From contig OY811985.1 in NCBI GenBank assembly GCA_963681505.1, forward strand, positions 2,528,713 through 2,592,712: a stretch of 64,000 nt of DNA, in the 5' to 3' direction. Under the pieces are notes generated by a model. That model saw nothing but the letters and a program-made list of their open reading frames with translations, had not been told where the DNA came from and did no database searches. The DNA is from Eunapius fragilis. Its lineage: Eukaryota; Porifera; Demospongiae; Spongillida; Spongillidae. The position numbers were made by a program, and so were the translations under genes. Of the stretch, positions 11,368 to 43,372 are shown piece after piece. The stretch's first letter is position 1. Every line of letters begins with the position of its first letter.

Positions 11368-11636
11368 ACAAGTGATAAATACATTCTCTATACAAGAAGG
11401 TTTGTGATATATAGGAATCCAAGGCGATGGTTGTGTAAAAAGCAAGGGAACAAGGCTTCTGATTGAAATGAAATAATGAAATAGTCCTGTATTAGCAGCA
11501 TGTTGTCCTATTTAACTGTGTGTGCTAGTATAGGTCTATTTCATTATTCCATTTCAATCAGAAGCCTTGTTCCCTTGCTTTTTTGATTCCTATATACCAC
11601 CAACCTTCTCGTATAGAGAATATTCTTATCACTTGT
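11368..11636. repeat. Terminal palindrome of E1
   Basis: Two inverted arms of ~115 bp around a short centre. Outer ends are ACAAGTGATAA and its complement. Each arm carries a TTCTC...GAGAA-type signal (partly mutated in the left arm), ATATAGGAATCC, GTGTAAAAAGCAAGGGAACAAG and TATTTCATTA-type sequence. The GGAATCC variant matches the one at the hairpin end of the same element. Confidence 0.8.
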
Positions 11637-13072
11637 TTCATTAATTTATTCCCATGCTTCAGTATATTTAAAATTACATTTTGTTATCATACCATTAAAT
11701 CATGGTTGGAATAGTATCAGAAAAGTAATTACTGTAGTTAAAATGTTATCATGCCCACAAAGCGGTAGTGATGATAGTTGTAGTTGTTGTAGTTGGGCAT
11801 ACATATAGCTAGACAGGGTAGGGCATGTGGTAATCCTTTGGATCAGATAGTGTCCAATCTAATCAGAGCATATCCAGGTGGGCTAGCCTAACAATAGTAA
11901 TACTAGAATACAACTCTTGTTTTAAAAATTGCGCACTGGTACCATTGTATGGACCACACTTAAACAGTTGTTTGCCAACTGCTTTGGTTTGGTCCTCTGC
12001 ATGGACTGGAGGCAACCAATACGTAATGATTGTGTTTAATTCTGGACTGCATGTGTATACGAGTGGCTAGCTGTTGCTGGGATCTGTTTCTGTATGGGGA
12101 GACACATCCTCATTGGAGCCTCTTGCTTCTCATGTATCTGCTGTAGGCTGTATGTATAGCACTGACTTCCTGTAGTCCCGTAGTATCTGATCACGTACCG
12201 ACGGAATTTAAAGTATAAGAAGCTATAGTAGAAGTGGAATTTGGTCAAAACTAATACATGCGATATTGTCGGGTCCTTACGGGGTAGTTTTGATGGGACT
12301 TGTCAATGCCTAATTTAAATAACCTGCCAAAATATGCAGGCTGTTACTTGGTTTTCATTTCAAGCTGCGTAACGAATGATAGAGTTGAGAGTAATGCACA
12401 GGCGTCATGCTTAAGTAAATGTTATCACATATCATTGCTCCATTCCGTTTTCTCACCATTTGGCAATATGATTGGACATGTACACATGGAGCCATATGGA
12501 CCCTGAAATCATCAAAAGGGCCTCTGATGCTCTTAGATTCAGTACTTACCTCCAGTTTCACAGCGTGAAGGATTATTTAAAAGAATTAGAATTAACACTC
12601 ATGATTGATATTATTATTATAAATAGCTATCTGAAGTAATTGGCTATTTTTAACTGAATACCAAATAAGGTACTACTCGCTTTAGTTAATTGCCTGAACA
12701 GTTAGGGTCTAGCAGACACCTGAAGATAACATGCTGTCACATCCTGAAGCGATTGGTACACTTGGCGTTCTTTACAAACGTTCCTGTTGTGAGTTATATT
12801 AACCCAAAGGAAAAAGAAGAAGAGGAGAAGAAGTAGACGACAATGATGATGAGGAAATTTTTTATGGGACTGCGTACGGACGATGGGGACAAGTATTTTT
12901 GTGCAGTCTTATGACACGGAACAACGCAGAACTGTTCTCCTTTTTTGATATCGATTGATTGCCACTAAGAGCAAAGTGACCCAACTCTTGGCTGTCCCAC
13001 CTGACGTGAGTGACGTTTTTTAAGGACATTCATCATATTGTTGGATTCCTATATGGAACCTACTCTCGTAGG
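11368..13072 (-). mobile_element. Hairpin/palindrome-ended element, copy E1 (non-autonomous)
   Basis: Read on the minus strand it starts with a hairpin at 13059-13072 (stem CCTAC, 4-nt loop), then ATATAGGAATCC, then a ~330-bp terminal module (13072-12744) with the GTGTCATAA block, a GAA/GAT/GAC-rich trinucleotide patch and GAAGCGATTGGTAC. It ends in a ~270-bp palindrome at 11368-11636. The interior (11637-12743) has no recognisable gene, unlike E2-E4. The outer end lies 8 bp from the right end of the large fold-back element. Confidence 0.65.
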
Positions 13073-16000
13073 CTCCGATGCATGGAATTCTAATTGCGCA
13101 CACCTGTGCATGCATGATGTATGGTTACAAGTGGTGTACTTCTTTCCCCCCTTAACAGACCCACATTAATTGTTTTGTTGGGCTTCCTGTGGCTTTGCGC
13201 CATTACCTTGCCACAGCTGGTTCATGCTCTTAATACGGCAACAAACGGCTCAGCTTTCATCATCGTTTTGAGCATCACTTTCACCCTTTCTTTCAGCCTG
13301 TGTTGCTTAGCCTTGAAATCATTGTGGATATCTATTTCTCAGAGCTAAACTGAAACATCATCCACCTGTTCCACTGCATCGTTCTGCCACTGATCAGAAG
13401 TTGATCCCTATTTGTATTTTAAGCAGTACATTACCAAGCAAGTTTATGAGGCCCTGCCATTAACGATGAAGCTTTGCCTTTGGCCACGGAATGACAAGGA
13501 GTCATTTGAGATTTTCAGTTGCATGTGTTACACTGTTGTGTTGTATAAAGCTTTCTGGCACCGTAGTTGTAAATTTAGATGATTTGCAATGTGCTGATGA
13601 TAAGTGGGCTCCAAGAGAAACTGCACATCCTGCATGTGCATACTTGTTCACCTGCAGAAAGAAAGAGGAAAACAAAATATTACATTAGAAGAAAGGTACA
13701 CCTCCCTCTCAAGCATTTAACCAGTAGTCTCCAGCAACTGGTCCGATAAGCCATCATCACCATCGAATATGTAAGTCCCAGTCCAATCCAGGATCTCCTG
13801 GCCAGGCCAATACAGGAACGTTGAAGACTAGTGAGATGTGTGCATCTTGAAAATCTCTTATCTACTAAAAGACAAAGCCCCTTTGCAGAGCAACCTTATG
13901 GTGGGGGGACCAGCGCCGGGTAACCAGGGCACAGGTGGCGCAAAGGTGCCAGCCCCACCGAAGGTAGAGGCCCACTCAGCCCTACATACAGCCATGCATT
14001 TAATCACGTAATAGCACAACGTTATAATAGAACTAAAGAAAGGAGCTCGACAATCATGAGAAGAAGAGACAGTTAGTGTCTATATAAATGTCCTGGACGT
14101 CATCCCCCGCGGGGTATGCATTTGTCTACCTTCCTTTCAAGTCACATTTGACAGGTCCTGACGCTTATCGCAATCGCACTTTGATGCACTGATTTGGGAC
14201 TGAGAAAAAAAAAAGAATTACAGCTTGGAACTAATTTCGGTCCAAGCTCCCAAGCACCTGTACAACGCACATGCACAGTCAAATATAAAGGAGCTGTAAA
14301 CTGGCACAACGTGAATAACTTAATTGTACACTGCGTTTGACAAATGTATCCACGGGATGGATGACACCCAGCTCAGGATATATACATTAATACCCCCGGC
14401 GAAGTGGCAAGCTATTTTTGATTTGCAAATTTTATTGCGGTACGAAAAATACTAAAATAAGTTCTGTTTTTCCTCAACCAGCTATTTTGTTTTCAATTCT
14501 CAGGATAGAATCCGATTGTGCTTGTCAAATTGACTTTTCTAACAAACTTGCCGAAAGCAAATAGTAAAAGTACACAGCTTGCATAAGTTGCACCAATTGG
14601 GGATTGTAGACTGTTTATGTATGTGTCTGTTCAAATACAATCATACAAGTGCATGGCGATTCAATGATTGTTATGCCGAATGATGTTAAAAGCATGCGGT
14701 ACGAAGAATGAAATGCATGTGATATGTGCTTTATACATTCCCCAATGCAACCCAATGGGTCCTCTGCTACTAATCTACAGAAGTAACAAGTATAAGTCGG
14801 GGGAATACTGTACAAAATGGGATGAAGTGTATCCTATGCCTAACATGGAAGCAGGGAGTGTTGCTGAACTATTTGTGTGACATTTGACGTTTTATGTGCA
14901 CTTTTGTGTGCCAGATGTTCACATCAATCAGGGCCGAATGTGCCCTGCTGAAGCACGTGTGGGAGTGGTCAAAATGAGAACCACCCTATACCACTCTCAA
15001 CGGACGATTTAGTTGTGTGATTTAAAGTTATTGATCCTCTCTAGTATGGTTGCTTCATGTAATTCATAGTTATAAAGACCTTGCACAGTAATGTTCTATA
15101 TATCATACATTATTCTTCAATACCTGTACATGTAGGTCTAGTTTGTCATCACAGGACTCATAACCTTACAAAGTTACCTCTTTATCCTACCAACTTTCTA
15201 TCCTTGCCATAAGTGTCCACTTGTGTCTTCTTTCACCTGCAGTTCATCACAAGCTTCATCATCATAAGGTGGCTGCATTGTCAACGGAGCCTTATTCATA
15301 TTCTGCTGATGGCTCCTGGCAAACACATGACGGAGCACTGCTGACTTTTGTTAGAACTGTGTCTCTTGTAGATGCCTATTCATTCATGCTTTGATGCTTC
15401 CTCATGGGCTCTTCTTCTTTTTCTCTGCTCTTCATGTGCCTTGGCCTATTCATCAGTTTCTTTCCTTGTTTGTTCCTTCATCTCATCTTCCATTGTCAAA
15501 ATCCATTCTTCTGCATGTTGTGGTCCAGTTTGTCTGACAAGTATTTCCCTTTGTATAATATATCTGCCAGTTTGTGCACAGTTTCTTAGTTCAGATGCAG
15601 GCTGAGAAATAGGACTACAATGGGAATGCAGTACCAATAGCCTGCATACATAACTTTGTGAACTCCATTCGTGACTCCTCTAACCATCACAAAATACTTA
15701 TGAGTTTCAAATGACCTCTGTTTGAGTAACTGAAAGAATTTTTTCATACTCTGAAGAAATTTATCCACCCCTTTTCACTGATGCAACCTGGGCTTTGCCT
15801 ACCTCTATGAATATTGGCCTACAGTGCCCTTTCAAAACATGTGACCATCAGTGGCCATTATTATAATGTGTTCAAGCTGATCCACCTATGATTGAGCTAA
15901 GCTGGTTTTTGTTTCACTCTGTATGACGTTTCTACATTTTAAGCTAATTCGAATAATTAAATGTCTCATTTTCCAGGGGTGGAATTGTTTTACATTGCAC

Positions 16001-19314: not shown

Positions 19315-19347
<33 letters not shown>

Positions 19348-19596
19348 GGGACAGTGTCCAGCTAAATCACCCTTATGGTACTTTTTCAAAATTTCCAGAA
19401 CAAGCAAAAGAAAAGTAACGCTCGCATTGAAATGTATGGCTAATTATAAATTCAGTGCCTAATAACTTTGTGATGGATAGTCCGATTTAGGATGCGTAAA
19501 GACCATTTGACAGAAGCTCATGGGTGTTCAAGGAAAATCAAAAAATTTCGAAAACTTGAAAAACTAGCCAGAAGGGTGATTCTGCTGGACACTGTC

Positions 19597-19630
<34 letters not shown>

Positions 19631-22600
19631 GACAGTGTCCAGCAGAATCACCCTTCTGGAGTTTAAATTTTACCACTATAAAAATTGTACATTACACAAA
19701 GCAACATATCTTCACAACAGTTTTATATTTTCTTTTCAAATTTTGTACACCTGTTCACACATCAGTTCTCTCTGTGCAAACCGATTTTGGCTCTCTAGAT
19801 ATTTTCCATACCATGGTTGCAAAGGTCTCTAACCCAATGGGTTAAGATTCCACATTTCTCCAGATACGAGTGACGATCAAATGTCACATTTGGAGTGCAC
19901 ATAGAAGGGTCCTGTAGTTATTGATTTCTGCTGATCGCTAAGTTTTTTCTTATCCGTTACGGAGATATAGTTTTTCAAAGTAATTCGACATTTCGTGCCA
20001 CTCACGTTAGCAACCCAATTCCCATTCTTCCAATATGCGATTATGTAATGGTCGCGCCCTTTAAATTTGAAGTTAGGTAAATGAACCCCGCTTTGATCGT
20101 GCTACGAGTGATCGTACCTCGTACGGTATGTTGCAACATAAAACAGTATCGTACGTTCATATGTATTGCTTGTATATGTTTATGGTGGATGCTGTGAATA
20201 TTCATGGTAGTTTATATTGTGCACCCTTTTTCTATATCTGCTCAGTTAGTGGCATGTACATGTAAACATGCATGTACCATGCCTTCTAATCATGGGACCA
20301 CCTTCTTCACCCTCTACACCCTCTACACTAGTCTGGGGACCGGATGACTTGCTTGCGACAGTCAGTTATCTGGTATACAAACGCGGTACCTTTACTCAGT
20401 ATGGTAGACCATTCATATTCACTGCCTTTCTTTCTATCTTACCTCCTTCTCCTCTCCCTCCTCCTCCCCTCCTCCTCCCCTCCTCCTCCCCTCCTCCTCC
20501 CCTCCTCCTCCTCCTCCTCCCCTCCTCCTCCTCCTCCTCCTCCCCTCCTCCTCCTCTCCTCCTCCTCCTCCTCCCCTCCTCCTCCTCTCCTCCTCCTCCT
20601 CCTCCCCTCCTCCTCCCCTCCCCTCCCCCTCCTCCTCCTCTTACTCCCTCTCATTTTCCCTCCTCCTACCTTCCTTCCTATTACACCTACCCCTCCCCTC
20701 CTCCTTTCTTTTGATTGCATCCACACCTCCCCCTCCTCCTCCTCATCCTCCTACTTCTACCTTCCTACCCATTGCATCCACCCCTCCCGTCCTCCTTCCA
20801 TTCTTCCCATTGCATCCACCCCCACCTTCTCCTCCCCTCCTCTACCTCCTTCTCCTCCCCTCCTACCTTTCTTCCCATTTCATCCACACCTCCTCCTCTC
20901 CCTCCTCCTCTTCCTAGCTCCTCCTCCTATCTTCCTTCCCATTGCATCCACCCTTTCCCCTCCTCCTCCTCCTCCCCTCCTCCCTCTCCTTCTCCTCTTT
21001 CTACCTTCTTTTCCATTGCATAAATAAATGATAAGAGACATGTGTCCGAAGATAAAATCCTTTATTTTTCCAGCTTTAAACTATTGGTATTGTAAGTCAA
21101 AGTGTTGTTAATTTTGCAAGCACCCGGAATCATTTTGGCACTTCAGCACATACAATATAACCTATCATTGGTTATTTCACAACTAAAAAGGTGACAATGC
21201 AACAACCTAGTAGGCACTGCCAACAATTAGGCAGGGACATCAGATATCCCCCCCCCCCCCCCCCCCTCCTTACTTAAGTGTACTTTGTTTTTGGAAAGAC
21301 CTTAGTGCTATGACATGCACGCATGTAGTTCAAAACTACTTGTTCTAACTTCCATGTAGAGCATGTACAAGTTACGTTTGACTCTACCATGTACCATTCT
21401 ACCATTCTAGCTTGTCGATTTAAACCACTGGCCACCCACAATCTGTACTGATAAGGGTATAATAATATTCATAAAAGGCTTACTCCAGTATACATTCCCT
21501 TGTGTAGAACTCTTGAGTTCAGTTCTTGCACAGGCTCTGTATAATAATCTCTTATAATAGCCTTTTCTAGTTGCATGTAGTTTGCACATCCCAAAAAATA
21601 CATTCCGCTGACTCCTAGGTGAAAAATATATATTGAGGTGAACACTTCCTTTGAAACAAAGGGGTTAATATTAAATACCCTCTCTACCCAAGGAGGTGGA
21701 AGGGGAGGAGGAGGAGAAGGAGGAGGAGGAGAAGGGGGGGGGGGAGGTAGAGAAGGGGGAGGAGGAGGAACACGAGATGGTTGAGGAGGTAGAGGAGTGG
21801 ATGCAATGGGAAGAAAGGTAGGAGCGGGAGGAGAGATGGATGCAATGGGAAGTACGGTAGAAGGAGGAGTGGGAGATGGAGGAGGATGAGAAGGAGAAGG
21901 AGGGGAGGAGGAGGTAGGGGAGTAGGAGGAAGGATGTTTGAATGCAATAGAAAAATAGGTAGGCGGAGGAGGAGGAGGGGAGGAGGAGGGGGAGGAGGGG
22001 AGGAGGGGGTAGAGGAGGGGGAGGAGGAGAGGAGGAGGAGGTATAGTAAGGAGGGGGTAAAGGAGGGGGTAGAGGAGGGGAGGAGGTATAGTAAGGAGGG
22101 GGTAAAGGAGGGGGTAGAGGAGGGGAGGAGGAGGTATAGTAAGGAGGAGGTAAAGGAGGGGGAGGAGAGGTAGAGGAGAGGGAGGGAAGGGATGAATTGA
22201 GAGGAGAGGTAGAGGAGAGGGAGGGAAGGGATGAATTGAATAGGAAGATAAGTAGGAGGAGGAGGTAGAGGAGGGTGAGGAAAAGGAGGATGAGGAGGAG
22301 GAGGTAGGAGGGGAGGTGTGAATGCAATAGGAAGATAGGAGGAGGATGAGGAGGAGGAGGGGGAGTATGGGTAGATGAGGGAAGATAGGAGTCGGAGCTA
22401 GGAAGAGGAGGAGGGAGATGAGGAGAAGGTAAGATAGAAAGAAAGGCAGTGAATATGAATGGTCTAGAGAGATATGCCATACTGAGTAAAGTTACTGCAG
22501 TTTGTGTACCAGATAACTGACTGTCGCAAGCAAGTCATCCGGTCCCCAGACTAGTGTAGAGGGTGACGAAGGTGGTCCCATGGCTAGAAGGCATGGTACA

Positions 22601-25600
22601 TGCATGCTTACATGTACATGCCACGAACTGAGCAGATATAGAAAAAGGGTGCACAATATAAACTACCATGAATATTCACAGCATCCACCATAAACATATA
22701 CAAGCGATACATATGAACGTACGATACTGTTTTATGTTGCAGCATACCATACGAGGTACGATCACTCGTAGCACATCAAAGCGGGGTTCATTTACCTAAC
22801 TTCGAATTTAAAGGGCGCGACCATTACATAATCGCATATTGGAAGAATGGGAATTTGGTTGCTATTGTGAGTGATGCGAAATGTTGAATTACTTTGAAAA
22901 CTGTATCTCTGTAACGGATAAGAAAAAACGATCTGTAGAAATGATAAGCTACAGGACCCTTCTATGTGTACTCCAAATTTGACATGTTATTGTCACTCGT
23001 ATCTGGAGAAATGTGGAATTTTAACCCATTGGGTTAGAGACCTTTGCAACCATGGCATGGAAAATATCTAGAGCACCAAAATCGGTTTTGCACAGAGAGA
23101 ACTGGTGTGTGAACAGGTGTACAAAATCTGAAAAGAAATATAAAACCGTTGTGAAGATATGTTGCTTTGTGTAATGTACAATTTTTATAGTGATAAAATT
23201 TAAACTCCAGAAGGGTGATTTTGCTGGACACCGTCCCATATACATATAAAGTAATAAAATTGGTCCACTTTAAAATCACAGCATCTGCCGACCCGTAAAT
23301 GCTATTGACTTCCTATTTTCAACACTTCATACTACACCATTTCTCTATGGTAAAATACATTTTGGTGTCTTGCATTTGCTTCATGCCAGTGTTGCAATTT
23401 TATACCCCTAGGGGTTCAAACACAAAATATCTTTCTGCAGGAAAATCCAATTCAGTGGGATCCTATACTTATTGATTTGTCCTGTTCGTTAATTTTTACT
23501 TCGTCTGTTACAGAGATACAGCTGTGCAAAGTAATTGCACATTTATGAATCATTTCACGCTTTTAACTTATTACGACCTGGTTCCCATTTATCTCATAGC
23601 CTACACACACGCACTCACACACAAAAACACACAAAAACACACACACACACACAAACCACACATGCTTGCTCTCCACTGCAGTGTGAATCCTGTATATTGA
23701 TCATGGTATCACCTCCACAACCCTGAGCTTTCTGTCTGCCAGTGTTTTCTCATAAGAAGGCCAATGTCCTATGTGTACCTTATTATTGGGTTAAACCCAA
23801 CAATAGAATTCATTGTTCATTTTTGCACTACATGTAAGGAAGAAAATTCTACAAATCATAAGCACTCTAAGTATTATGAATGTTAAAAATAAATTTTTAT
23901 GCTTACCAGAGTTATATGGATGCATCCATGGCATTTCTCAAAATAGGGAGGTACTTTAGTTTTCAGAAATGCAGTACTTCCCTTAGGCAAAGGTCTTGAT
24001 AAACATATGGGAGATTATCCAACAAAACCGGGCTTATGGTATTTTATTCAATTCGATATAATATATATTATCCGAATGGTAAGCGCTATCGGCTTCCTCT
24101 TTTCAACACTTCATACTGCACCATTTCTCTATGGGTAAATATATTTTTGTGTCTTATATATGCTCTGTGCCCTAAGTATAAAGTCTGATACCCTACAGGG
24201 GTCACAAACCATGTATCTTTATGGAGGAGTGTCCAAATCACTTGAAACTTGGTATGTACCTAAAGGAGTCCTCTCACTTTTGATTTCGGCAGATCGTTAA
24301 AGTTTTCTTATCCGTTACGGAGATATAACTGTGTACACTTCGCGGGCATTTCGCGCCACTACCCAACTCCCATTCCTCCGAGACGTATGAATATGCGAGT
24401 ACCTCATTTACACCTTTTCTTTGCCAAACAGTCTAGGATCATATACCACCTTTGCTATATCACTCACAGTTAAGTGCATCAGGCGATCGTGTTTTGTAAT
24501 AAATGTTTCAACACAAAACAGCATCGCTTGTTCACACGCATGCCGAATACTGAATTAAGACTTGTGTCAGATCGATGTTCAGCAAGCGCTTGGATTAGCC
24601 CACAGCTACATGTAGGGGCAAGGTTTTTGATTGATGCCTGAATTTGATTTTTAACATTTTCAAGGGAGGAAAGTGCTACGTATTGAAATCAACATTTTGG
24701 TACCTTCATATTTGCATTACACAACAGTAGCTAATACGATTAGAGCTCAGGTCATTGAGTTTTACCTTATCCGCTATGGATATATAGCATTGGTCATTGT
24801 ACAGTGTCGTCGAGCGCCTCTTCCCGTCCCTCCGCCAGAGTTCATGCAGGTCACCGCATAGCTGTCGCTACAGCTGCACCTGCCCGTGAGCTTGACCAGG
24901 CCCAGAGACCACCCCACCGCCGCGACGATGGTTCTGACCAACCCCTCGAGGCAGCCAAAGTAGTGCCTCGCACATTGCGACAAAATTTGCATAACCCCCA
25001 TTGGGAAAATATGCCCTATTCACAGCAGGTTTGTGTAGTTGGGCATCAAACCTATACCTGGATTTGTACCCATCTGATAGCGAGAGTGGGTTATTATTAC
25101 ATATGTGGGCTATTATCACATATAGCCCTGCATGGTCCATAGGGTGAGTAGTACTAGGCAAGTGTTACAGCCATCACCGGTCTACAGGATGAGTGAAATG
25201 AAAAATGCTGATATATGGTAGGTGGTTAATACATATATAGGTGCAGAGCGTAAATCCCAACAAAAGAAGGGTGGCTTTTAAGCCCAGCTGTGGCTTTAGC
25301 TCAATCACGTCGCCACTTCTGTTCATACACCGACTTTATCTCATGACTCTGTAGTACTGTCATAGCGTTGAGCATCAATAAATGTCCATAAAAGGAGTGG
25401 TACCCAAAGAGTTGCACCGAACCGACAGGCACACGATTTCTACATGAGTCATGATGTTGTGTGTGCGCAAACTGCTACTACTACGTGCCACGTCGAGTAA
25501 GGCAATGGCAGCAGAATTTAGATTGCTCAATCTTTGCTTCTGTGCGCTATAAAATTTGAAAAAGAATCAGACTGACATTTGCATGAAGCGAGAAGTCTCA

Positions 25601-30254: not shown

Positions 30255-30549
30255 ACAAGTAAATAAAAACATTCTCTAACGAGAGAGTTATTGGTATATA
30301 GGATTGACCAATGGTGGTGTAAAAAGCACAGAAACAAGAGCGCGACAGAAATTTTACTGGAAAATTGAAATAGGCCTATATTTAGCCCATTATCAGGCAT
30401 GCGCTGTTATTTTGTGAGTGCTAAATATAGGCCTATCTCAATTTTCCAGTAAAATTTCTGTCGCTCTTGTTTCTGTGCTTTTTACACCACCATTGGTCAA
30501 TCCTATATACCAACAACTCTCTCGTTAGAGAATGTTTTTATTTACTTGT
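30255..30549. repeat. Terminal palindrome of E2
   Basis: 295 bp with two ~125-bp arms that differ at only a few positions. Outer ends ACAAGTAAATAAAAACATTC. Then a small hairpin (TCTCT AACG AGAGA), TATATAGGATTG, GGTGGTGTAAAAAGCAC and AATAGGCCTATATTTAGC in each arm. Confidence 0.9.
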
Positions 30550-30701
30550 TTCATAAGTTTTTTTTCACCCTGTCATAACAGTGTCGTAGTCAATAATCAC
30601 TTGTAGTAAGAGCGTATAGAATTTGGACGATCCTCTTTATTATCTATATATCTCTTAATGGCAATAACAATTATAATTGTACGAATTAGTTGTATTGATT
30701 A

Positions 30702-30998
30702 TCATTTGTTCTCGCCCGCGCCCTCATCTCCTGTGGGGACGTCCTCCTCCTGGCCCCCTCGCCATGCTGGGCTGGGCCAGGGTGGCTGGGGCCATGCAGG
30801 CCAGGGAGGAAGCACTGCTGGTGGTAGTGGGGGAAGCACTGGTGGTGGTGGTGAGAGTGCAGGCGGGAAAAGTGCAGCTGGTGGCGGGGTATCGTTGCTG
30901 GTGGTGATGGTGGGTGTATGCAGCACTGCTGGTGGTGGTGGTGGGTCCATCGCTGCTGGTGGCGGTGGCGGGGGGCAGTGCTGCTGCTGGTGGTGCAT
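30702..30998 (-). pseudogene. Remnant of the Pro-rich/RGG gene of the E family
   Basis: The minus-strand frame shows Pro/Ala runs followed by PAWRGG, as in 36370-36921, then shifts out of the RGG frame. The 5' part has been deleted: at ~31020 the sequence jumps straight into the second exon of the repeat-protein gene. Not functional as read. Confidence 0.6.
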
Positions 30999-31445
30999 AA
31001 ATGATGCCTACAAAAGGCATCATTTACTTCACTTAGAAGCTCACTATCCCTACGAATAGCTTTTTCAAGACCACCATTTTACTCCATTAGTGCATGAGAT
31101 ATGGGTTCATACAAGGAGTAGCTATATGGAAGAAGGATATGGTTGCAGTTATTTTCATTTCATCTAGTTCTCAGCCCTTGCAACTGCAATTATATTCATA
31201 CAGTTGCAACATATGTACATGGCTAGACAAGGTTTAAGACAAGGAAGCCTTCAGATAAGGAAGCCTTTTTATACATCAGATTAAAACAATAGACACTACT
31301 GTACACACACAGTTGAGTCACCAAGCATGCTTTACATGTGAAGTGAATGGTTTTGTGCAGATCCGTGCTGTACATAGTCGGGCGGGCCTACCACCGCGTT
31401 TGGTCAGGTAGTAAGGTGACAAGCCGCGGTAGTAGGGCCGCCCGA

Positions 31446-32084
31446 CTATGCTCTACAAATGTTACATGCACAGCTTTTTAATGCAACATGCCATAACATA
31501 CCTTTGGGTGGTAGTGGTAGTTCTGTGACCCCAGCGGTACCGCGTCCTCTCGGCAGCACATTTAACCAATCGGACAGCAGGGTCATTCCAATACCGACTC
31601 CTTTCAGATGCTTTAATGGCAGTTGAATTGTCCTCATATTTCTGCCTTTTAGCAGCGCGGTTTCCCTCGATGTCCTCTTCATATCACCGCCTTTTAGCAG
31701 CACGGTTCTCCTCGAGGTCCTCTTCATATCGCCGCCTTTTAGCAGCACGGTTCTCCTCGAGGTCCTCTTCATATCGCCGCCTTTTAGCAGCACGGTTCTC
31801 CTCGAGGTCCTCTTCATATCGCCACCTTTTAGCAGATCGCTTAGATTCAATATCGGCCATGTAGCTGTCGCGTAGAGAGGCCTTCTTCTTTTCGGGATCG
31901 GCCTTGTAGCTGTCGCTTACAGAGGCCTTCTTCTTTTCGGGATCGGCCTTGTAGCTGTCGCGTACAGAGGCCTTCTTTTCAGGATTGGCTTGTAGAGCGC
32001 TCGGGGTTTAGCTTTATTCTCTTCCTGCTTTTGGAGGTATTCCGCTCTATGCTTAGATCTCTTCTTTTGATTACGCGAAGGCAT
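31446..32084 (-). pseudogene. Broken copy of the 15-residue-repeat protein gene in E2
   Basis: The ATG at 32084 begins MPSRNQKKRSKHRAEYLQKQ, matching E3. A frameshift in the KPILK/KADPEK region ends the frame at 31917. The downstream RRRYEEDLEENRAAK repeats persist in another frame to the same CAAAG|GTATGT donor near 31500. There is an extra duplicated segment of the KKK...YATAT region compared with E3. Confidence 0.75.
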
Positions 32085-32593
32085 TTTTACAAAAACAACT
32101 TCACTAGCCAAAGCAAAGTAACAACTAAACTGCACCAAATAAATTTTGTGCATGTTAGAGTCTTTTTACTGCCTAAAATTATTAACAAAAATCTATTATA
32201 TATCATTATTGTATAGAACTTGATATATATGTGTGTCCATATGACATGTAAGGATTACGTGCCGGTAAATTTCGAAGCGATTGGTACTATTGCCGTTCTT
32301 CAAAACCGTTCGTAGCTGGAGTTATACCTTCCTAAGAAGACGACGACGACGACGACGACCAAGAATTATTTTAGGACTGGGCACGAGAAACAGGAAATTG
32401 TTTGTTTCTCTATAACCACACCGTTTTATGACACGGAACCAAAGTTGAACTATAGATCGTTTAGCTCTCATTCCATCGCGATAAAGAGATAAGCGATCCG
32501 TTTCTCCGTTGTCCCTCCAGACGCTAGTGAAGTTTTATTAATGACATTCATCAACCCTCAATCAATCCTATATTGAACCTGCTGCCGCAGGTT

Positions 32594-32891
32594 AAGATAT
32601 AATGAAAGAGTACTAAATGCATAGTCCACCGAATACCAGTAATCGCGAATAGTCGAAAAAAACCCTGAAAATCAGTTATACACCCTATGTGCACTACGCC
32701 AAACAGCAAGATTCTATTTAAACACAGTACTAGTGATACAATTGGTAAATGATCCCCTCATGGATCAGTATTTTCCATCAGGTAAAAGGTTGGGTCATTT
32801 TACATCGATAAATTTATTTATTTATTAGCCCGTTAGTATAGTAACCATAAAAGATACCTGACTTTAGAAAATCATTTTCTTGATGTAAAAA
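32594..32891. other. Spacer between E2 and a hAT-type MITE
   Basis: A/T-rich; nothing recognised. Confidence 0.4.
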
Positions 32892-33798: not shown

Positions 33799-33849
33799 AA
33801 AAAAATGCCATTATAGTAGTTATTGTAATGAAATCAAAAAAAAACTTAG

Positions 33850-34110: not shown

Positions 34111-34592
34111 TTCGCTTAGAAATTCATATCAGAAAGCTTAGTGGTGGGTGTGCGGTTCACAATCACGTCATCATCTGAACCTGCGGCAGCAGGTTCAATA
34201 TAGGATTGATTGAGGGTTGATGAATGTCATTAATAAAACTTCACTAGCATCTGGAGGGACAACGGAGAAACGGATCGCTTATCTCTTTATTGCGATAGAA
34301 TGAGGGTACAACGACCTACAGTTCTACGTTGGTACCGTGTCATAAAACGGTGTGGTTATAGAGAAACAAACAATTTCCTGTTTCTCGTGCCCAGTCCTAA
34401 AATAATTCTTCATCGTCGTCGTCGTCGTCTTCTTAGGAAGGTATAACTCGAGCTAGGAACGGTTTAGAAGGACGGGAATAGTACCAATCGCTTCGAAATT
34501 TACCGGCACGTTATCCATACATGTCATATAGACACATATCAACTTCTATTTAATAATGTATGTAATAGATATTTATTAATAATTTTAGGCAG

Positions 34593-34600
34593 TATAAATA
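34593..34600 (+). promoter_or_regulatory. TATA box of the E3 repeat-protein gene
   Basis: TATAAATA 81 bp before the ATG. In the broken copy E2 the matching place reads AGTAAAAAGA, so the box is lost there. Confidence 0.5.
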
Positions 34601-34680
34601 CTCTAACCTGCACAAAAAATATTTGGTGTTCCTATCGCAGTTTAGTTGTTACTTTGGCTAGTGAAGTTGTTTTTCTAAAA

Positions 34681-35969
34681 ATGCCTTCGCGTAATCAAAA
34701 GAAGAGATCTAAGCAACGAGCGGAATACCTCCAAAAGCAAGACGAGAACAAAGCTAAAGCCCGAGCGCTCTACAAGGCCGATCCCGAAAAGAAGAAGGCC
34801 TCTGTACGCGACAGCTACAACGCAGATATTGAATCTAAGCGATCTGCTAAAAGGCGGCGATATAAAGAGGACCTTGAGGAGAACCGTGCTGCTAAAAGGC
34901 GGCTATATGAAGAGGACCTCGAGGGGAACCGCGCTGCTAACAGGCGGCGATATGAAGAGGACCTCGAGGGGAACCGCGCTGCTAACAGGCGGCGATATGA
35001 AGAGGACCTCGAGGAGAACCGTGCTGCTAAAAGGCGGCGATATGAAGAGGACCTCGAGGAGAACCGTGCTGCTAAAAGGCGGCGATATGAAGAGGACCTC
35101 GAGGGGAACCGCGCTGCTAACAGGCAGAAATACGAGGACAATTCAGCTGCCATTAAAGCATCTCAAAGGAGTCGGTATTGGAATGACCCCGTTGTCCGAT
35201 TGGCTAAATGTGCTTCCGAGAGGACGCGGTACCGCAGGGGTCACAGAACTACCACTACCACCCAAAGGTATGTTATGGCATGTTGTATTAACATTAAAAA
35301 GCTGTGCATGCAACATTTGTAGAGCATAGTCTGGCGGTGTTTGGTCGGGCTTGTCACCCTTCTACCTGACCAAACGCGGTAGTAGGGCCCGCCCGACGAT
35401 GTACAGCACGGATTTGCACAAAACCATTCACTTCACATGTAAAGCATGCATGGTGACTCAACTGTGTGTACAGTAATAGTGTCTATTGTTTTACTAATCT
35501 GATGTATAAAAAGGCTTCCTTATTTGAAGGCTTCCTTATCTGTCTAGCCATGTACATGTGTTGCAACTGTATGAATATAATTGCAGTTGCAAGGGCTGAG
35601 AACTATAGGTGAAATGACAATAACTGCAACCATATCCTTCTCCCATATAGCTACTCCTTGTATGAACCCAAATCTCATGCACTAATGGAGTATAATGGTG
35701 GTCTTGAAAAGGCTATTCTTAGGGATAGTGAGCTTCTAAGTGAAGTAAATGATGCCTTTTGTAAGTCTCATCCATTGCTAGCTCAAAAGGTTGTTACTAG
35801 ATCTGCCCGTGCAGCAGTAAGTAAGATTGGGGCAGAGGCATTGGTTTCTAAAGCACTAAGTGTACGAAGAGCAAAAGCAGGGTCATTGCTAAAAACTATC
35901 CGTGAAATAAATAGAATGAAAATAGGAGAAACACTCATAACGCTGCAGACCCGGTCCACACTCACCTGA
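34681..35969 (+). CDS. Basic 15-residue-repeat protein of the E family, two exons, 301 residues
   Basis: Exon 1 is 34681-35267 (CAAAG|GTATGT) and exon 2 is 35651-35969 (CCATATAG|C); the join is in phase (2+1). The start is the ATG of MPSRNQKKRSK, conserved in all copies together with GTGAAGTTGTTTTTCT before it. Residues ~55-155 are tandem units of the type RRRYEEDLEENRAAK, 45 bp each, highly charged and probably helical/coiled. The next segment has a Thr run. Exon 2 codes a non-repetitive Lys/Arg/Ala-rich part (HALMEYNGGLEKAILR, ARAAVSKIGAEALVSK). Similar charged repeats occur at the N-terminus of some Helitron/PIF1-type proteins of aquatic animals, but no helicase or Rep domain is here. Function unknown. 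Confidence 0.65.
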
Positions 35970-36206
35970 AAACATATCCTTATCAATCTACATGGTGCCA
36001 TGTTATCCCAGTTCTACATGCAGTCATGTAGTTCACTTCCTGAGTTCTCACACTATCCATCTTTACTTCATGTAGGCTACACCTCCATGTTTAGATTGGA
36101 GCATTTTCAAATTTGACCAATAAAATTTTAGCACATGCCGTTTATATGATGGAATCGGACCAATAGAATTATAGCACAGTCTGCACACGTGTTAAGGCTT
36201 TGCAGG

Positions 36207-36214
36207 TATATAAG
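36207..36214 (+). promoter_or_regulatory. TATA box and untranslated first exon of the Pro-rich gene
   Basis: TATATAAG, then a likely start ~30 bp on. A donor GAG|GTAAGAATT at 36258/36259 and an acceptor GTACATGTAG at 36369 would place the ATG exactly at the start of exon 2. Confidence 0.5.
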
Positions 36215-36369
36215 TCAGTCATGCACCCGCTGAAATATAGTGCACTTTGAAAAAAGAGGTAAGAATTTAATAATATACTCTATGTGGATTCACGTGTAAA
36301 CTTGCTTGAAAAAAGAATAAGGTAAAATTTTTTAAAATCATACTCTCTGTCTCTGTCACGTACATGTAG

Positions 36370-36921
36370 ATGGCAGCAGATGACCTTACGGGGTTTTTTA
36401 ATCAAGAGGGGTCAGAGGAGGAAGAGGATGACATACATCCTCCGACTCCTCTCCCCTTCACCCCGCCACCTCCAGAAGCCCCGCCACTACCAGCAGCGCT
36501 ACCCCCGCCGGCACCACCAGCGCTGCCCCCGCCGGCACCACCAGCGCTACCCCCGCCGGCACCACCAGCGCTGCCCCCGCCGGCACCACCAGCGCTGCCC
36601 CCGCCGGCACCACCAGTGCTGCCCCCGCCGGCACCACCAGCGCTACCCCCGCCGGCACCACCAGCGCTGCCCCCACCGGCACCACCAGCGCTGCCCCCGC
36701 CGGCACCACCAGCGCTACCCCCGCCGGCACCACCAGCGCTTCCCCCGCCGGCACCACCAGCGCTGCAACCGCCGCCTGTGCTCCCTCCCTGGCCACTGCC
36801 ACCCTGGCAGTGGCCAGCATGGCGGGGAGGCCGGGGAGGAGGACGTCCCCGCAGGAGACGAGGGCGCGGGCGAGGACAACAAATAATTTATAGTACATAT
36901 AATTATAATTATTATTATTAA
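36370..36921 (+). CDS. Pro-rich protein with Arg/Gly-rich tail, 183 residues
   Basis: The ATG follows directly after an acceptor site. The N-terminus is acidic (GSEEEEDDIHPP). Then eleven units of LPPPAPPA type (24 bp each, one Val variant), a PPWP/PPWQ segment, and a C-terminal RGG/RRRRGRGRG region suited to nucleic-acid or protein binding, ending in Tyr/Asn. The related tail in E2 and the duplicate at 36988-37150 show it belongs to the element, not the host. No known domain. The repeat number is likely unstable. It could also be a downstream exon of the repeat-protein gene. Confidence 0.5.
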   Translation: MAADDLTGFFNQEGSEEEEDDIHPPTPLPFTPPPPEAPPLPAALPPPAPPALPPPAPPALPPPAPPALPPPAPPALPPPAPPVLPPPAPPALPPPAPPALPPPAPPALPPPAPPALPPPAPPALPPPAPPALQPPPVLPPWPLPPWQWPAWRGGRGGGRPRRRRGRGRGQQIIYSTYNYNYYY

Positions 36922-37710
36922 AGTTATTTATTGAAATGATACTACATATACAACATTTACAGTTTTAAGCTACACAATTTTACTAAGAGCGCTGCCCCCG
37001 CTGCCACCGCCGCCTGTGCTCCCTCCCTGGCCTGCATGGCCACTGCCACCCTGGCAGAACCCAGCATGGCGGGGAGGCCGGGGAGGAGGACGTCCCCGCA
37101 GGAGACGAGGGCGCGGGCGAGGACAACCAATAATTAATAGTACAAATTCATATAATTATAAAAGGCCAGATGGAATTTCAATGGTTCCCTGGAAAGAGGG
37201 GAAACTCCTTGTGTGGGATGCTACATGCAGAGACACCTTGGCACCATCATATCTCTCCACTGCTGAAAGAGGCCCAGGATTGGTAGCAGCAGAGGCTGAA
37301 TCTCAAAAGAGGAAGAAGTATTCCTCTCTTGGAGCTAAATACTTCTTTGTTCCCATAGCATGTGAGTCTCTTGGTGTGTTTGGTGCTGAAACATTGTCCT
37401 TTCTTAAGGACCTTGGCCATCGTCTGCACAAAACCACTGGAGACTCACAATCCTACCAATTCTTACTCCAGCGCCTTTCTGTGGCAATCCAGAGAGGAAA
37501 TTCTACCTCCGTCTTGGGAACATTAAGTTCCTTTGATGGTTTAGATGACTTTTAGTTCTGTGTGCGAGTGATCGAGTGTGTTAGTGTGCCAGTACATTGT
37601 ATATGTTAGGTTGTGTTGTTGTTAGCCATATATGTTAGTTTATATAATAATGTAGTTCTGTATGTGCATTTATTCCTTTCATGTAATCTCTTGTAACTTT
37701 ATTATTACCT

Positions 37711-37750
<40 letters not shown>

Positions 37751-37827
37751 TCTTATTATTAAAGTTATTTATTGAAATGATACTACATATACAACATTTA
37801 CAGTTTTAAGCTACACAATTTTACTAA
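36760..37827 (+). repeat. Tandem duplication split by a retroelement insertion
   Basis: A ~225-bp unit (GCGCTGC...CTGTGCTCCCTCCCTGGCC ... AATTTTACTA) ends at 36985 and starts again at ~36988. The second copy is interrupted after ~37160 and resumes at 37748 with TTATTAAAGTTATTTATTG up to 37827. The insert is 37161-37747. Confidence 0.8.
37161..37747 (+). mobile_element. 5'-truncated retroelement end with poly(A)
   Basis: An ~590-bp insert starting inside an open frame and ending in a 34-base A run (37714-37747). The frame from ~37159 to 37555 codes KRPDG, LLVWDAT, then KRKKY and a C-terminal QRLSVAIQRGN segment. The PD...D-x-T...K..KY spacing resembles the restriction-like endonuclease of early-branching non-LTR retrotransposons. 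The fragment has no reverse transcriptase. It arrived after the tandem duplication. Target duplication not resolved. Confidence 0.65.
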
Positions 37828-37865
37828 ACAAAAAACAATACACTGAAACGGAGAAGGTGAGGAGA

Positions 37866-38072
37866 CTAACATCCAGTTGCCATTGAACGGGACAGCAGAG
37901 CTCTGGCATTCGCTCTAACTAGGACCAAGTTTAACCTGCCATAGAGAGCCGAAGTGGCCTGGGACTTGCAACAATTTGATCTAATTGCCAGGCGCGCTGC
38001 CAGTTGAGAAAAGTTTGTCTGTGTTTCTTGACCCCAACATCCATAAACCTCAACTGCCAAAGGTACACACAC
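37866..38072 (-). pseudogene. Remnant of a related endonuclease C-terminus
   Basis: The minus-strand frame with PLAVEVYGCWG, LAARLAIR and LYGRLNLVLVRANARA has the same layout as the C-terminal part of 37159-37555 (FVPIACESLGVFG ... QRLSVAIQRGN), so it is another member of that family in the opposite direction. The N-terminal active-site part is absent. Confidence 0.5.
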
Positions 38073-38209
38073 ACACCCAAGCTCTGAGCACTTTGTGTCA
38101 TTGCTGGCATGTTTTCTGTTTGTTATTGCATTAAGAATTAAAGGGGATCGTCCAAATTCTATGTGCTCTTCCTACATTTCATCGACTACGGTGAAAAAAA
38201 ACCTATGAA

Positions 38210-38500
38210 ACAAGTAAATAAAAACATTCTCTAACGAGAGAGTTGTTGGTATATAGGATTGACCAATGGTGGTGTAAAAAGCACGGAAACAAGAGTGACA
38301 GAAATTTTACTGGAAAATTGAAATAGGCCTATATTTAGCACACAATATAACACACATGCCTGAGTAATGGGCTAAATATAGGCCTATTTCAATTTTCCAG
38401 TAAAATTTCTGTCACTCTTGTTTCCGTGCTTTTTACACCACCATTGGTCAATCCTATATACCAACAACTCTCTCGTTAGAGAATGTTTTTATTTACTTGT
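38210..38500. repeat. Terminal palindrome of E3
   Basis: 291 bp, arms almost identical to each other and to those of E2 (ACAAGTAAATAAAAACATTC, TCTCT AACG AGAGA, TATATAGGATTGACC). The centre differs from E2. Confidence 0.9.
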
Positions 38501-39587: not shown

Positions 39588-39618
<31 letters not shown>

Positions 39619-39856: not shown

Positions 39857-40142
39857 TACTGGTACATGAGGGACATCCTTATACTGGTACATGAGGGACA
39901 CCCTTATACTGGTACATGAGGGACATCCTTATACTGGTACATGAGGGACATCCTTATACTGGTACATGAGGGACATCCTTATACTGGTACATGAGGGACA
40001 TCCTTATACTGGTACATGAGGGACATCCTTATACTGGTACATAAGGGACATCCTTATACTGGTACATGAGGGACATCCTTATACTGGTACATGAGGGACA
40101 TCCTTATACTGGTACATGAGGGACATCCTTATACTGGTACAT
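39857..40142 (+). repeat. 25-bp tandem repeat, ~11 units
   Basis: The unit contains ACTGGTACATGAGGGACATC; copies differ at one or two places (GACACC, ATAAGG). The same unit occurs inverted at 58984-59055. Confidence 0.95.
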
Positions 40143-40923
40143 GCTCTCTCATCACTCCTTCCCTCCTCCTCCTCTAACCCCTCCTTCCTGTAACCTTGAA
40201 AGGTATTGTCCCTTTCTTGGCTGCACCCACTCCACCATCAGCTTTGGCAGCTCTGTTCCTCTGGTTGAGCTGAATTATCCTGTTGTGCTGACTTATCCTG
40301 TTGAGCCACTATGGAAAAAGGCAGTTATACACCTAGTGTATTTGTACTATATACGCAAAGTTATACACCAAAATGTATTTGGCTGGTATACAATAAGTGT
40401 ATTACAAGCGTATAACAAGTGTAACACTGTTATACACACGTGCACACGTCGTTGCGGTAAGTGTGCGACAAGATTTTGATTGCAGGTGTTATACGTACAG
40501 TACACATAATGTGTATAACTTGTGTGCAATACACCGTATATCTTATTTTCTGTTATAATTTTTAAAAAGCCATTACGTCTGTCAATATGCAATTAGTATC
40601 AAGGATACTGCATACTACTTTTGTGATGCACGCGACCAGAATGGAGAGTTTGACTGGTTTTTTTCTTCTTGCTAGCTATAGCATTACGATCCATGTGGTT
40701 CTATTGTCATTACAACTGTCGGGCTTACATGTAATTGTGGGTGCATGGTGGCGTGTGAGAGGCGTTTGTTTGTCATATATTACCGTATAATATCCGAAAC
40801 ACTTAATTTCGTGCGCGAGACAGGTAATATTGCTCACCGCTACATATTAATATAATCATTCTTGTGCTTCGATCGTTGTAGATTTGACGCTCTTTGTAAC
40901 TTAGTGAAGTTGTTTTTCTCAAA
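40143..40923. other. Region before the second repeat-protein gene
   Basis: A CT-rich patch, then A/T-rich DNA. The last ~60 bp (CTTGTGCTTCGATCGTTGTA and GTGAAGTTGTTTTTCTC) is nearly identical to the sequence before the broken copy at 42704. Confidence 0.55.
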
Positions 40924-41519
40924 ATGCCTTCACGTCAGGAAAAGAAGAAAGCCAAACGACCAGCAAAGTCCCTCAAAACTCGAGACGACGTATTAGATTC
41001 TGCCCGAGCGAGCTACAAAGCAGAGCCTGAAAAGAAACGGGCCTCTCGATGCGCAAGGTATCGAGCAGATCCTGAAAAGGAACGGGCCTCTCGAAACGCA
41101 AGGTATCGAGCAGAGCCTGAAAAGGAACGGGCCTCTCAATGTGACAACTATCGAGCAGAGCCTGAAAAGAAACGGGCCTCTGAACGTGAGAAGTATCGAA
41201 CAGAGCCTGAAAAGAAACGGGCCTCTGAACGTGAGAAGTATCGAGCAGAGCCTGAAAAGAAACGGGCCTCTGAACGTGAGAAGTATCGAGCAGAACCTGA
41301 AAAGAGACAGGCAACTGAAAGTGAGAAGTATCGAGCAGAGCCTGAAAAGAAACGGGCCTCTGAACGTGAGAAGTATCGAGCAGAGCCTGAAATGAAACGG
41401 ACCTCTCGATGCGCCAGGTATCGAGCGGAGCCTGAAAAGGAAAGGGCTGCTAAAAGACAACGATATTGGCAGAGTCCTGAACGTGCTCGCTTGGCGAAAA
41501 GAGTTAAGGTCACTCAAAG
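40924..41519 (+). CDS. Second 15-residue-repeat protein, first exon
   Basis: The ATG begins MPSRQEKKKAKR. Eight or more units of the type AEPEKKRASEREKYR (45 bp) follow, then a SPERARLAKR segment and VTQR at a conserved donor CAAAG|GTATGT, phase 2 as in the E3 gene. No stop interrupts the frame up to the donor, but no second exon was found downstream; read through, the frame stops at 41586. The repeat sequence differs from E3 (EPEKKRAS versus EDLEENRAA), so the two genes diverged by unit replacement while keeping unit length, start and splice site. It lacks the hairpin module and palindrome of its own. Confidence 0.65.
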
Positions 41520-41992
41520 GTATGTCGTACTTGTACATGTACCGATAGCTACTACATTTGTACGTACCTATATTTCATGTACTTAATTTTGGTATACCAT
41601 AGATAGTAACTATCTATGGGTATACTTTGTGAGATCTCCACGTGTGATTCGGGTGGTGTAATGAATAGCTACAGTTGTGGGTTTGCTTGTGATTGTATGT
41701 TTTTCATGTATTATGTATGTATTCTATAATTATCGAGAGTTACGTTAATCGCTTGTTAAACCCATACCGAAGCAGGTATGCTCGGGTTGGCACTAAAAAG
41801 AGATAGAGGTGTGGTTACTGCTATCTTCCATGTATGCAGTGGTTTGCTCATATTACAAGTCTCATCAACACCTAATCTAATCGCATCGTATAGCCAAACC
41901 AATGAGACTATTGAAATGGAGGCATTATTTAGAGAAAGAGAACAGGTTACTCGTACGTTCCATGAATAGGAATCGCAACTCCACTAGGTTAT
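41520..41992. other. Downstream of the second repeat-protein gene
   Basis: Probably intron or decayed element. Contains an imperfect inverted repeat near 41759-41788 (CATACC...GGTATG). No exon identified. Confidence 0.4.
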
Positions 41993-42222
41993 AGTTACGT
42001 TAGTAACTCTCATATAGGATTTGACCCCGATTATGAAGTCATTAGAAAAATGCGACCCGCTTCTAACAAGACTCCTGACGAGCGGATGGCTTACCTTGCT
42101 GTCGTCATCGTACAAGAAGGCAACAACAAGCAGTTTCGTGTTTGTTTGATGTCACAAAACCGCGTGGTTGTAGAGAACAAAACTATTTTCCAAACTCGTA
42201 CCCAGTCCCACGTATTTCTCGT

Positions 42223-42224
42223 TC

Positions 42225-42256
<32 letters not shown>

Positions 42257-42312
42257 CTTCTTCTTCTCCTCCTCCTCCTCCTCCTCTTCTTCTTCTTCTT
42301 CTTCTTCTTCTT
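42223..42312 (+). repeat. Trinucleotide microsatellite of E4
   Basis: GTT repeats then CTT, CTC and CTT repeats. It sits at the module position where E2/E3 have GAC/GTC repeats and E1 has GAA/GAT. Confidence 0.9.
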
Positions 42313-42703
42313 GACCACGCATAACTCGGGATAGGAACACTTTTAAGAAATGAAAATCACACCAATGGCTTCAGAATTCGTTGGCATTCTCGCTTCTGTG
42401 GTCAAAACGTCTCGAAGCTACATGACATTTATCAGTGGTTGTGTTAGCAAATCACGTGTAGTAAAGCTTACTGCACTGACACGACTCGGATAGGTCATAC
42501 TTCGCTCTTTATACAAAGTACTAGAAGTATACATGATGTAATCAAGTGTGTACGGTCTGGGCACTACACGTAGTGGTAATTAACTGTGGCATGTATCCAG
42601 TTGTGCATTTAATAATGTGCACGTGCGTACTATAATCATTCTTGTGCGTCGATCGTTGTTGGTTTGACGCTCTTTGTAACTTAGTGAAGTTGTTTTTCTC
42701 AAA

Positions 42704-42990
42704 ATGCCTTCACATCAGGAAAAGAAGAAAGCCAAACGACGAGCAAAGTACCTCAAAACTTTTGAGACGATGTATTAGATTCAGCCCAAGCGGAACTACA
42801 AAGCAGAGCCTGAAAAGAAACGGGCCTCTCAACGTGAAAACTATCGAGCAGAGCCTGAAAAGAAATGGACCTCTCGACGTGCAAGGTATCGAGCAGATCC
42901 TGAAAAGGAACGGGCTGCTAAAAGACAGCAATATTGCCATAGTCTTGAACGTGCATCTCGCTAGGCGAAAAGAGTTAAGGTCACTCAAAG
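42704..42990 (+). pseudogene. Broken repeat-protein gene in E4
   Basis: Starts MPSHQEKKKAKRRAKYLKT and shifts frame, stopping at 42776. Units of EPEKK...type remain in another frame, with stops, to CAAAG|GTATGT at 42990. Only about three units are left. Confidence 0.8.
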
Positions 42991-43082
42991 GTATGTCGTA
43001 CCTTTACAACCTCCCTCTCATATCAAGATGGATTACTTAACCTGCTACGGCTCATAATCGGGTATGAATAAAAATCAATGAA

Positions 43083-43372
43083 ACAAGTAAATAAAAAACC
43101 TTCTCAATGAGAAAGTTGGTGGGATATAGGATTTGAAGGCAATGGTGGTGCAAAAAGCAAGGAAACAAGGGTCTGTAATAGTAAGGGAAAATGTCATAGT
43201 CCTATATTTAGCACACGAACATAGTATATGCTACAAGCGGGCCGCTAAATATAGGACTATGACATTTTCCCTTACTATTACAGACCCTTGTTTCCTTGCT
43301 TTTTGCACCACCATTGCCTTCAAATCCTATATCCCACCAACTTTCTCATTGAGAAGGTTTTTATTTACTTGT
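43083..43372. repeat. Terminal palindrome of E4
   Basis: 290 bp. Arms start ACAAGTAAATAAAAA, then TTCTC AAT GAGAA, GATATAGGATTTG, GGTGGTGCAAAAAGCAAGG and GTAATAGTAAGGGAAAATG. The two arms are near-identical to each other but clearly differ from those of E2/E3. Confidence 0.9.

Follow-up and report, generated by a model that had tools for sequence, protein, structure and literature searches.

Helitron-like elements with a palindromic 3′ end and signs of concerted arm evolution in the sponge Eunapius fragilis

Introduction

What kind of mobile element begins with a small hairpin and ends in a long palindrome, and does any known group share this layout? The question is raised by a 64,000-nucleotide stretch of the genome of the sponge Eunapius fragilis (assembly GCA_963681505.1, contig OY811985.1, positions 2,528,713 to 2,592,712; hereafter the window), in which a first-pass annotation made from the sequence alone had listed four copies, E1 to E4, with the common order hairpin, ATATAGGA, module, interior and palindrome. 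That order holds in all four copies, with boundaries refined here (Table 1). On our estimate, with a probability of about 0.85, they represent a Helitron-like element that starts with TC, ends with CTTG, inserts at A^T, has families that encode a RepHel transposase, and carries a palindromic 3′ end whose arms co-evolve. E1 to E4 themselves are very likely non-autonomous copies from three related families of such Helitron-like rolling-circle transposons.

Results

Long copies encode a RepHel transposase

The genome that was searched comprises 219 Mb in 24 contigs, with the window on contig C15; DNA searches scored 40 candidates each, so that counts taken from them are lower bounds. The element has a RepHel protein and inserts without target duplication, and on both points it belongs to the Helitron superfamily. 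Long copies occur in the E3 family (10.7 kb) and in a fourth family (10.4 kb), and they encode a protein of 1995-2020 residues in which a basic repeat exon is followed by DUF6570, a HUH two-tyrosine nuclease, a PIF1 helicase and an OTU protease, and in locus L030 the full RepHel open reading frame (ORF) is located between both element ends. The fourth, diverged family comprises L029 with L107 and L108 (G000:C9:6121260-6131629, 10.37 kb, a 2020-residue RepHel frame) and shares with the other three the 5′ hairpin, the inverted repeat and the 3′ palindrome; between L029 and the other loci compared, the RepHel domains are only 69-74% identical. The Rep region is 91% identical to P0004, a protein named for Ephydatia muelleri, and 92% identical to Em-numbered proteins, and the predicted fold of a close relative matches the Helitron transposase structure 7LCC. 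No apurinic/apyrimidinic (AP) endonuclease was among the 12 Pfam families matched in the 1995-residue protein (E <= 0.01), and identification as a Helentron was rejected on this ground.

The predicted Ephydatia proteins P0001 and P0006 join a 15-residue repeat to RepHel between TTTQ and SYSL, and the same junction is read in E3. The repeat-protein gene ascribed earlier to E2-E4 is therefore present, as exon 1 of the transposase gene rather than as a separate gene. E3 is 95-99% identical to the 5′ part of the long copy L011, and an ORF similar to its proline-rich ORF lies downstream of RepHel in L030. The statement that no enzyme is present holds for catalytic domains within the window and fails for the family, and the accompanying hint of a Helitron or HUH origin was borne out: a search of linked long copies for a Rep or helicase, as had been proposed, found RepHel, and its N-terminal exon persists in E2 and E3 and, degraded, in E4. 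A family without an enzyme was accordingly rejected.

The same genome also holds, beside dozens of Rep copies of the present kind, five Helitron1-like ones that score 218-220 bits to PF14214 (one is L109, G000:C9:2930795), a sixth that scores 210 bits and contains a stop, and some fragments. The Rep described here is 19-22% identical to that of L109, which we take to be Helitron1-like from its high PF14214 score and a motif.

The element inserts between A and T without target duplication

When the flanks of 17 E3-type insertions were joined and compared against all fetched sequences, three gapless empty sites without target duplication were obtained: L013 (70 nt, 100%), L021 (201 nt, 97.5%) and L017 copy 2, which sits in the module of another copy (133 nt, 98-99% identity to sister modules). 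These sites place the E3-type element, TC...CTTG, between an A and a T with no duplication of the target. The 3′ end is CTTG, directly followed by T, in 58/58 palindrome records, and is likewise CTTG in the L029 family. A stands directly 5′ of the element in 19 of 20 loci of each of the E3, E1 and E4 types; the E1 and E4 types have one departing locus each (L084 with G, L089 rearranged), and TC is altered in L085 and L103. The ends of the E1, E4 and L029 types were placed by alignment, the empty sites covering the E3 family. The empty-site comparison that had been proposed for finding the exact target thus yields A^T, and the ends are not terminal inverted repeats (TIRs) with target duplication, the outcome that would have spoken for a classical superfamily. 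A foldback element or classical TIR transposon was rejected given the absence of duplication at the three empty sites, the asymmetric ends and the RepHel enzyme.

A paired 5′ stem abuts an asymmetric terminal inverted repeat

The 5′ hairpin described by the first-pass annotation is present, with a correction: its 9-bp stem stands directly after 5′-TC and ATATAGGA abuts it, without the reported gap of 2-4 nt. Stem sequences differ among the four families, yet all are able to pair and have a 4-nt loop. In ten left-end rows, hand-picked as distinct variants across the four families and hence amounting to about four families of independent covariation evidence, 98.9% of cells are paired, 6/9 pairs are altered on both sides, and the covariation score was reached by 0/500 shuffles.

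The motif next to the hairpin is longer than had been noted, ATATAGGA being part of ATATAGGATTGA in E3, ATATAGGAATCC in E1, ATATAGGATTTG in E4 and ATGTAGGATTTG in L029. It is a terminal inverted repeat of 12-13 nt that starts 24 nt into the element and is exact in E3 and E4. Each of the four families has its own version, which recurs in its own palindrome (for E1, in full in the outer arm only). Judged by its sequence, ATATAGGA is part of an asymmetric terminal inverted repeat, the defining feature of Helitron2 (PMC3627910).

The 3′ end is a palindrome whose arms change together

The near-perfect palindrome measures ~290 bp. Its outer edge is the 3′ end of the element, and its inner arm mirrors the final ~130 nt, with both the inverted repeat and ACTTG^T included. 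Arm complementarity is 97-100% in E2-E4, and both arms are held in 36/40 scored genome loci for the E4 palindrome and in 32/40 for that of E1. The small hairpin near the 3′ end is supported by folding in E4 (z = -2.2) as it is in E3.

Arms are alike within a type (E3 130/130, E4 129/129, L029 130/131) and differ between families, where the same arm, gaps apart, agrees at 108/126 positions for E3-E4 and 90/113 for E3-L029. Together with the 69-74% identity of the RepHel domains, this shows that arm identity has been upheld through long divergence. Within the E3 family, changes were counted in 51 comparable copies; of the 58 palindrome records, E1, E4, L021_8043 and L056 were not entered, and L043, L054 and E2 were dropped because of indels. 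Six sites changed in both arms, three of them in a single copy only, and 24 changes were confined to one arm, a count in which inner-arm variants are under-represented because 34 of the palindromes were selected by best inner-arm match to the E3 arm. By a rough calculation from the 24 unmirrored changes over 51 copies of 250 sites each, ~0.02 mirrored changes would be expected by chance, against the three single-copy sites. The spacer is reversed in L010 and, L010 included, in 9/40 loci ranked by likeness to L010; given this ranking by a reversed query and seven alike rows, the nine loci point to few independent events and give no frequency. Read from the sequences, mirrored changes and reversed spacers point to copying of one arm against the other and to inversion between the arms.

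Hairpin, module and palindrome travel together in the genome

An exact 30-nt left end has 420 genome matches and an exact 31-nt palindrome arm has 919, the reversed-pattern controls giving 0 in both cases, an excess well above chance; about two arms per left end agrees with the prediction of one palindrome per element. On contig C1, an exact arm lies <=16 kb downstream of 39/47 exact left ends and upstream of 5/47, and 27/32 exact palindromes have a correctly oriented exact left end within 16 kb, which argues against the independent occurrence of hairpin, module and palindrome that had been named as a possible refutation. In 17/20 fetched loci the palindrome follows the module downstream and shares its orientation (in L025 at 9.4 kb, cut by the stretch end); the remaining three (L011, L014 and L020) contain runs of N, which are present in 5/20 fetched loci altogether. 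L016 and L017 are clusters of nested copies, including one inserted in another copy's left module. An E1-type left end (L031) starts 24 bp past the 3′ end of L030, so that two families are inserted nearly side by side.

Copies and other repeats in the window

Table 1. Element copies in the window and the features located within them.
Feature	Positions	Strand	Remarks
E1, third-family copy	11369-13078	-	No coding remnant recognised
E1 3′-terminal palindrome	11369-11635	-	Arms partly diverged; 104/114 aligned arm positions identical, 32 gap positions
E2, E3-family copy	30256-32597	-	On opposite strand from E3
E2 3′-terminal palindrome	30256-30548	-	
E2 exon 1 of RepHel gene	31502-32084	-	Start and splice donor
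E3, non-autonomous Helitron-like copy	34174-38499	+	5′-TC...CTTG-3′ between A and T; boundaries via sister-copy empty sites
E3 5′-terminal hairpin	34176-34197	+	9-bp stem, loop GGCA, directly after 5′-TC; fold z = -5.5
E3 5′ asymmetric terminal inverted repeat ATATAGGATTGA	34198-34209	+	Exact matches within both palindrome arms
E3 exon 1 of RepHel gene	34681-35267	+	Basic 15-residue repeats (the repeat protein of the first-pass annotation); junction as in P0001/P0006
E3 intron between exons 1 and 2	35268-35650	+	GT...AG; inferred from protein junction
E3 exon 2 remnant of RepHel	35651-35931	+	Internal deletion before catalytic domain; collinear with L011 to its position 1987
E3 proline-rich ORF	36370-36921	+	24-bp tandem repeat; no Pfam match
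E3 3′-terminal palindrome	38211-38499	+	Inner arm, 25-nt spacer, outer arm; arms 133 nt, 99% complementary; 130/130 aligned identical
E3 terminal inverted repeat ATATAGGATTGA, inner copy	38251-38262	+	
E3 terminal inverted repeat, outer (3′) copy	38448-38459	-	40 nt before 3′ end
E3 small 3′ hairpin TCTCT-CGTT-AGAGA	38469-38482	+	17 nt before 3′ end; fold z = -3.2
E4, second-family copy	41993-43371	+	First ~5 nt (TCGAG) missing relative to its family
E4 degraded exon 1 of RepHel gene	42704-42990	+	Start and splice donor
E4 3′-terminal palindrome	43084-43371	+	129/129 aligned arm positions identical, 2 gap positions

The window also contains a further E4-type fragment at 40848-41537 (+), absent from the earlier list, with approximately nine 45-bp exon 1 repeats and a splice donor and with no termini recognised nearby; it is 83-94% identical to E4, depending on the segment. 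Half of an E4-type left end, an A followed across the boundary by TCGAGAGTTACGTTA, occupies 41732-41747 and breaks off after the hairpin loop, ~260 bp before E4. A separate dispersed repeat of ~840 bp occurs at 10527-11371, 19326-20319 and 22408-23249 in direct and inverted copies that are 91-96% alike and have in common an ...GGGACAGTGTCCAGC...-like end.

Discussion

Several observations weigh against the account of a Helitron-like element with co-evolving arms, and are best considered together. CTTG departs from the canonical CTRR, no RepHel copy is tied to the E1 family, and the RepHel frame of L011 is divided between two ORFs and runs out at an assembly gap. Two of five covariation measures for the 5′ stem are unremarkable when set against shuffles (pairs changed on both sides, 18/500; further pair types, 399/500). 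Among the other 14 joined flank pairs, two gave gapped matches (L017 copy 1, which lies in a diverged module, at 82% with 22 gap positions, and L015 with 8 gap positions) and the rest had no match among the fetched sequences, while the flanks of L016 match different parts of the element and so do not represent a simple insertion. Pairing of the arms is imperfect across contig C1, where 64 of the 100 exact arms listed fall in 32 palindromes and 36 are without an exact mate, which is mutated or missing. Folding, applied to E1, E3 and E4, supports the small 3′ hairpin in E3 and E4 and gives no support for it in E1 (z +0.6). Among the nine loci with a reversed spacer, only L010 was read in letters. 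Two unmirrored changes are each shared by a pair of copies, at inner site 120 by L062 and L063 and at outer site 62 by L034 and L027, so that changes in one arm may survive transposition.

By analogy with other members of the superfamily, Rep would nick one of the strands at the end with the 5′ hairpin, the helicase would peel off the nicked strand, a second nick would follow at CTTG^T, and a single-stranded or circular intermediate would insert at A^T. The peeled strand could fold its 3′ palindrome into one long hairpin, in effect an enlarged terminator, within which stem mismatches would be corrected or one arm copied from the other. Opening of this structure by recombination or hairpin resolution would sometimes invert the spacer, and repair or copying in the hairpin would keep both copies of the 3′ end alike. 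The sequence patterns lead us to infer hairpin pairing of the arms, with each repaired or copied against its partner; that this serves transposition is a hypothesis. Taken further, the palindrome may be a working part of a new Helitron end, with a peeled-strand hairpin in which each arm templates copying or repair of the other and which is resolved either way round, a tentative proposal that we consider rather unlikely. Each arm is a full 3′ end, so that under this proposal the element could terminate on either strand, and, if it is true, a Helitron lineage would recognise its end by a self-templated hairpin rather than by pairing of 5′ and 3′ repeats. The flip and flop hairpin ends of parvoviruses offer a comparison for a palindrome hairpin resolved in either orientation.

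Concerted arms and inverted spacers can also be produced by chromosomal gene conversion and recombination between inverted repeats. It is a serious possibility, which we place somewhat short of even odds, that the same Helitron-like element carries in its palindrome a passive relic of an inverted second-copy insertion near the 3′ end, the arms being kept alike by chromosomal gene conversion only. Inverted and nested copies are present in the fetched loci L013, L016 and L017, and a complete ACTTG^T boundary, such as a genuine insertion end would have, closes the inner arm. The shared one-arm changes described above weakly favour gene conversion of a relic inverted duplication over a hairpin step. 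Published parallels are the composite Helitrons with internal termini discussed in Fusarium (PMC5148889) and the inverted repeats reported to be actively maintained in C. elegans (PMC1803023). Yet the palindrome has been retained in four families despite thorough divergence of the arms and of the RepHel domains. A useless relic would be expected to have been lost in some family, but our searches began from these ends, and such families would escape them.

The remaining explanations concern the nature of the element as a whole. An independent foldback element or miniature inverted-repeat transposable element with long TIRs, situated near the end of another transposon, would fit a long, near-perfect inverted repeat around a small spacer and the 5/32 exact C1 palindromes that are without a correctly oriented exact left end within 16 kb. 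It is very improbable, since the empty sites take out module through palindrome as one unit, the palindrome's inverted repeat bears the family-specific letters of the 5′ end, and the other 27 palindromes do have a left end. Hardly any weight attaches to an assembly artefact at palindromes or to tandem or satellite repeats: palindromes pose difficulties for assembly and some fetched loci contain N runs, but exact copies with precise junctions number in the hundreds, three empty sites are gapless, and the letters differ among the four families. A Helitron1 family of canonical type, with decorated ends, is improbable, and was rejected as an identification, because the 3′ end is CTTG rather than CTRR in every palindrome record; the 5′ hairpin and asymmetric inverted repeats, as well as the low Rep identity to L109, also speak against it. 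In its favour are the TC start and A^T insertion without duplication, which agree with the published Helitron1 (PMC4778049).

The Helitron-like element with a palindromic 3′ end thus bears on how Helitrons are terminated. In the open full-text literature, with subscription papers and Repbase entries outside the search, we met no account of a Helitron whose 3′ end is a long palindrome. Published accounts state that in Helraiser a 3′ hairpin acts as terminator, yet is not strictly required (PMC4778049), and that in Helitron2 pairing of the 5′ and 3′ inverted repeats is proposed to mark the end (PMC3627910). In the sponge element, the 3′ repeat has a perfect partner adjacent to it in the palindrome, so that the terminator and repeat-pairing ideas become separable, with hundreds of near-identical copies at hand. 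The element is therefore a new handle on how Helitrons recognise their own 3′ end, and its mirrored mutations provide, from sequence alone, a readout of the timing and manner of arm homogenisation in palindromes.

The comparisons that follow draw on parts of the cited papers, and statements that a feature is not described apply to those parts. The layout of Helitron2, in which a hairpin stands at the 5′ end, another close to the 3′ end, and the inverted repeats are asymmetric, is published (PMC3627910, PMC5148889). The first-pass claim of an undescribed family with no known layout consequently falls for the hairpins and asymmetric repeats and stands, within the literature searched, for the ~290-bp palindrome; the novel part is, apparently, the doubling of the 3′ end. 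As its sequence has it, the element is a mixture of Helitron2-type ends and Helitron1-type targeting. With Helitron2 (PMC3627910) it shares two terminal hairpins, short asymmetric inverted repeats, a 3′ repeat upstream of the small 3′ hairpin, a RepHel without endonuclease, a 5′ T and compensatory changes in the 5′ hairpin. It differs in that the 5′ repeat of Helitron2 lies within 0-2 bp of the end, inside the hairpin, whereas the sponge repeat starts 24 nt in and abuts the stem; in the distance of the 3′ repeat from the end (20-30 nt there, 40 nt here); in the target (after TTTT in Chlamydomonas, A^T here); and in the doubling of its 3′ end into the palindrome. Helitron1, as exemplified by Helraiser (PMC4778049; 7LCC), has in common with it a HUH two-tyrosine Rep with a PIF1-type helicase, a matching fold of the Rep region, 5′-TC, an A^T target without duplication, and a small near-3′ hairpin that is the proposed terminator, but ends in CTRR/CTAG rather than CTTG; the sponge element adds the 5′ hairpin, inverted repeats and long palindrome, and its Rep is only 19-22% identical to that of L109.

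Helentrons and the related DINE and HINE elements (PMC4067079) resemble it in their asymmetric subterminal inverted repeats, 38-60 bp from the 3′ end there and 40 in the sponge element, and in a 3′ palindrome, an OTU protease in some members and deletion derivatives; they differ in their TT target, as against A^T, and in the AP endonuclease domain, which was not found in the sponge protein. The FoHeli elements of Fusarium (PMC5148889) also start with TC and a 5′ hairpin, and in FoHeli1/2 an asymmetric inverted repeat lies 38-51 bp short of the 3′ end, but their target is TNAT^T, their 3′ end is ATTTT, and no long palindrome is described. Lepidopteran Hel-2 (PMC4344730) shows the same mixture of Helitron1 and Helitron2 traits, with a TC start, A/T flanks, 5′ and subterminal inverted repeats and a 3′ stem-loop; it differs from the sponge element in its 3′ CTAG, and no long palindrome is described for it.

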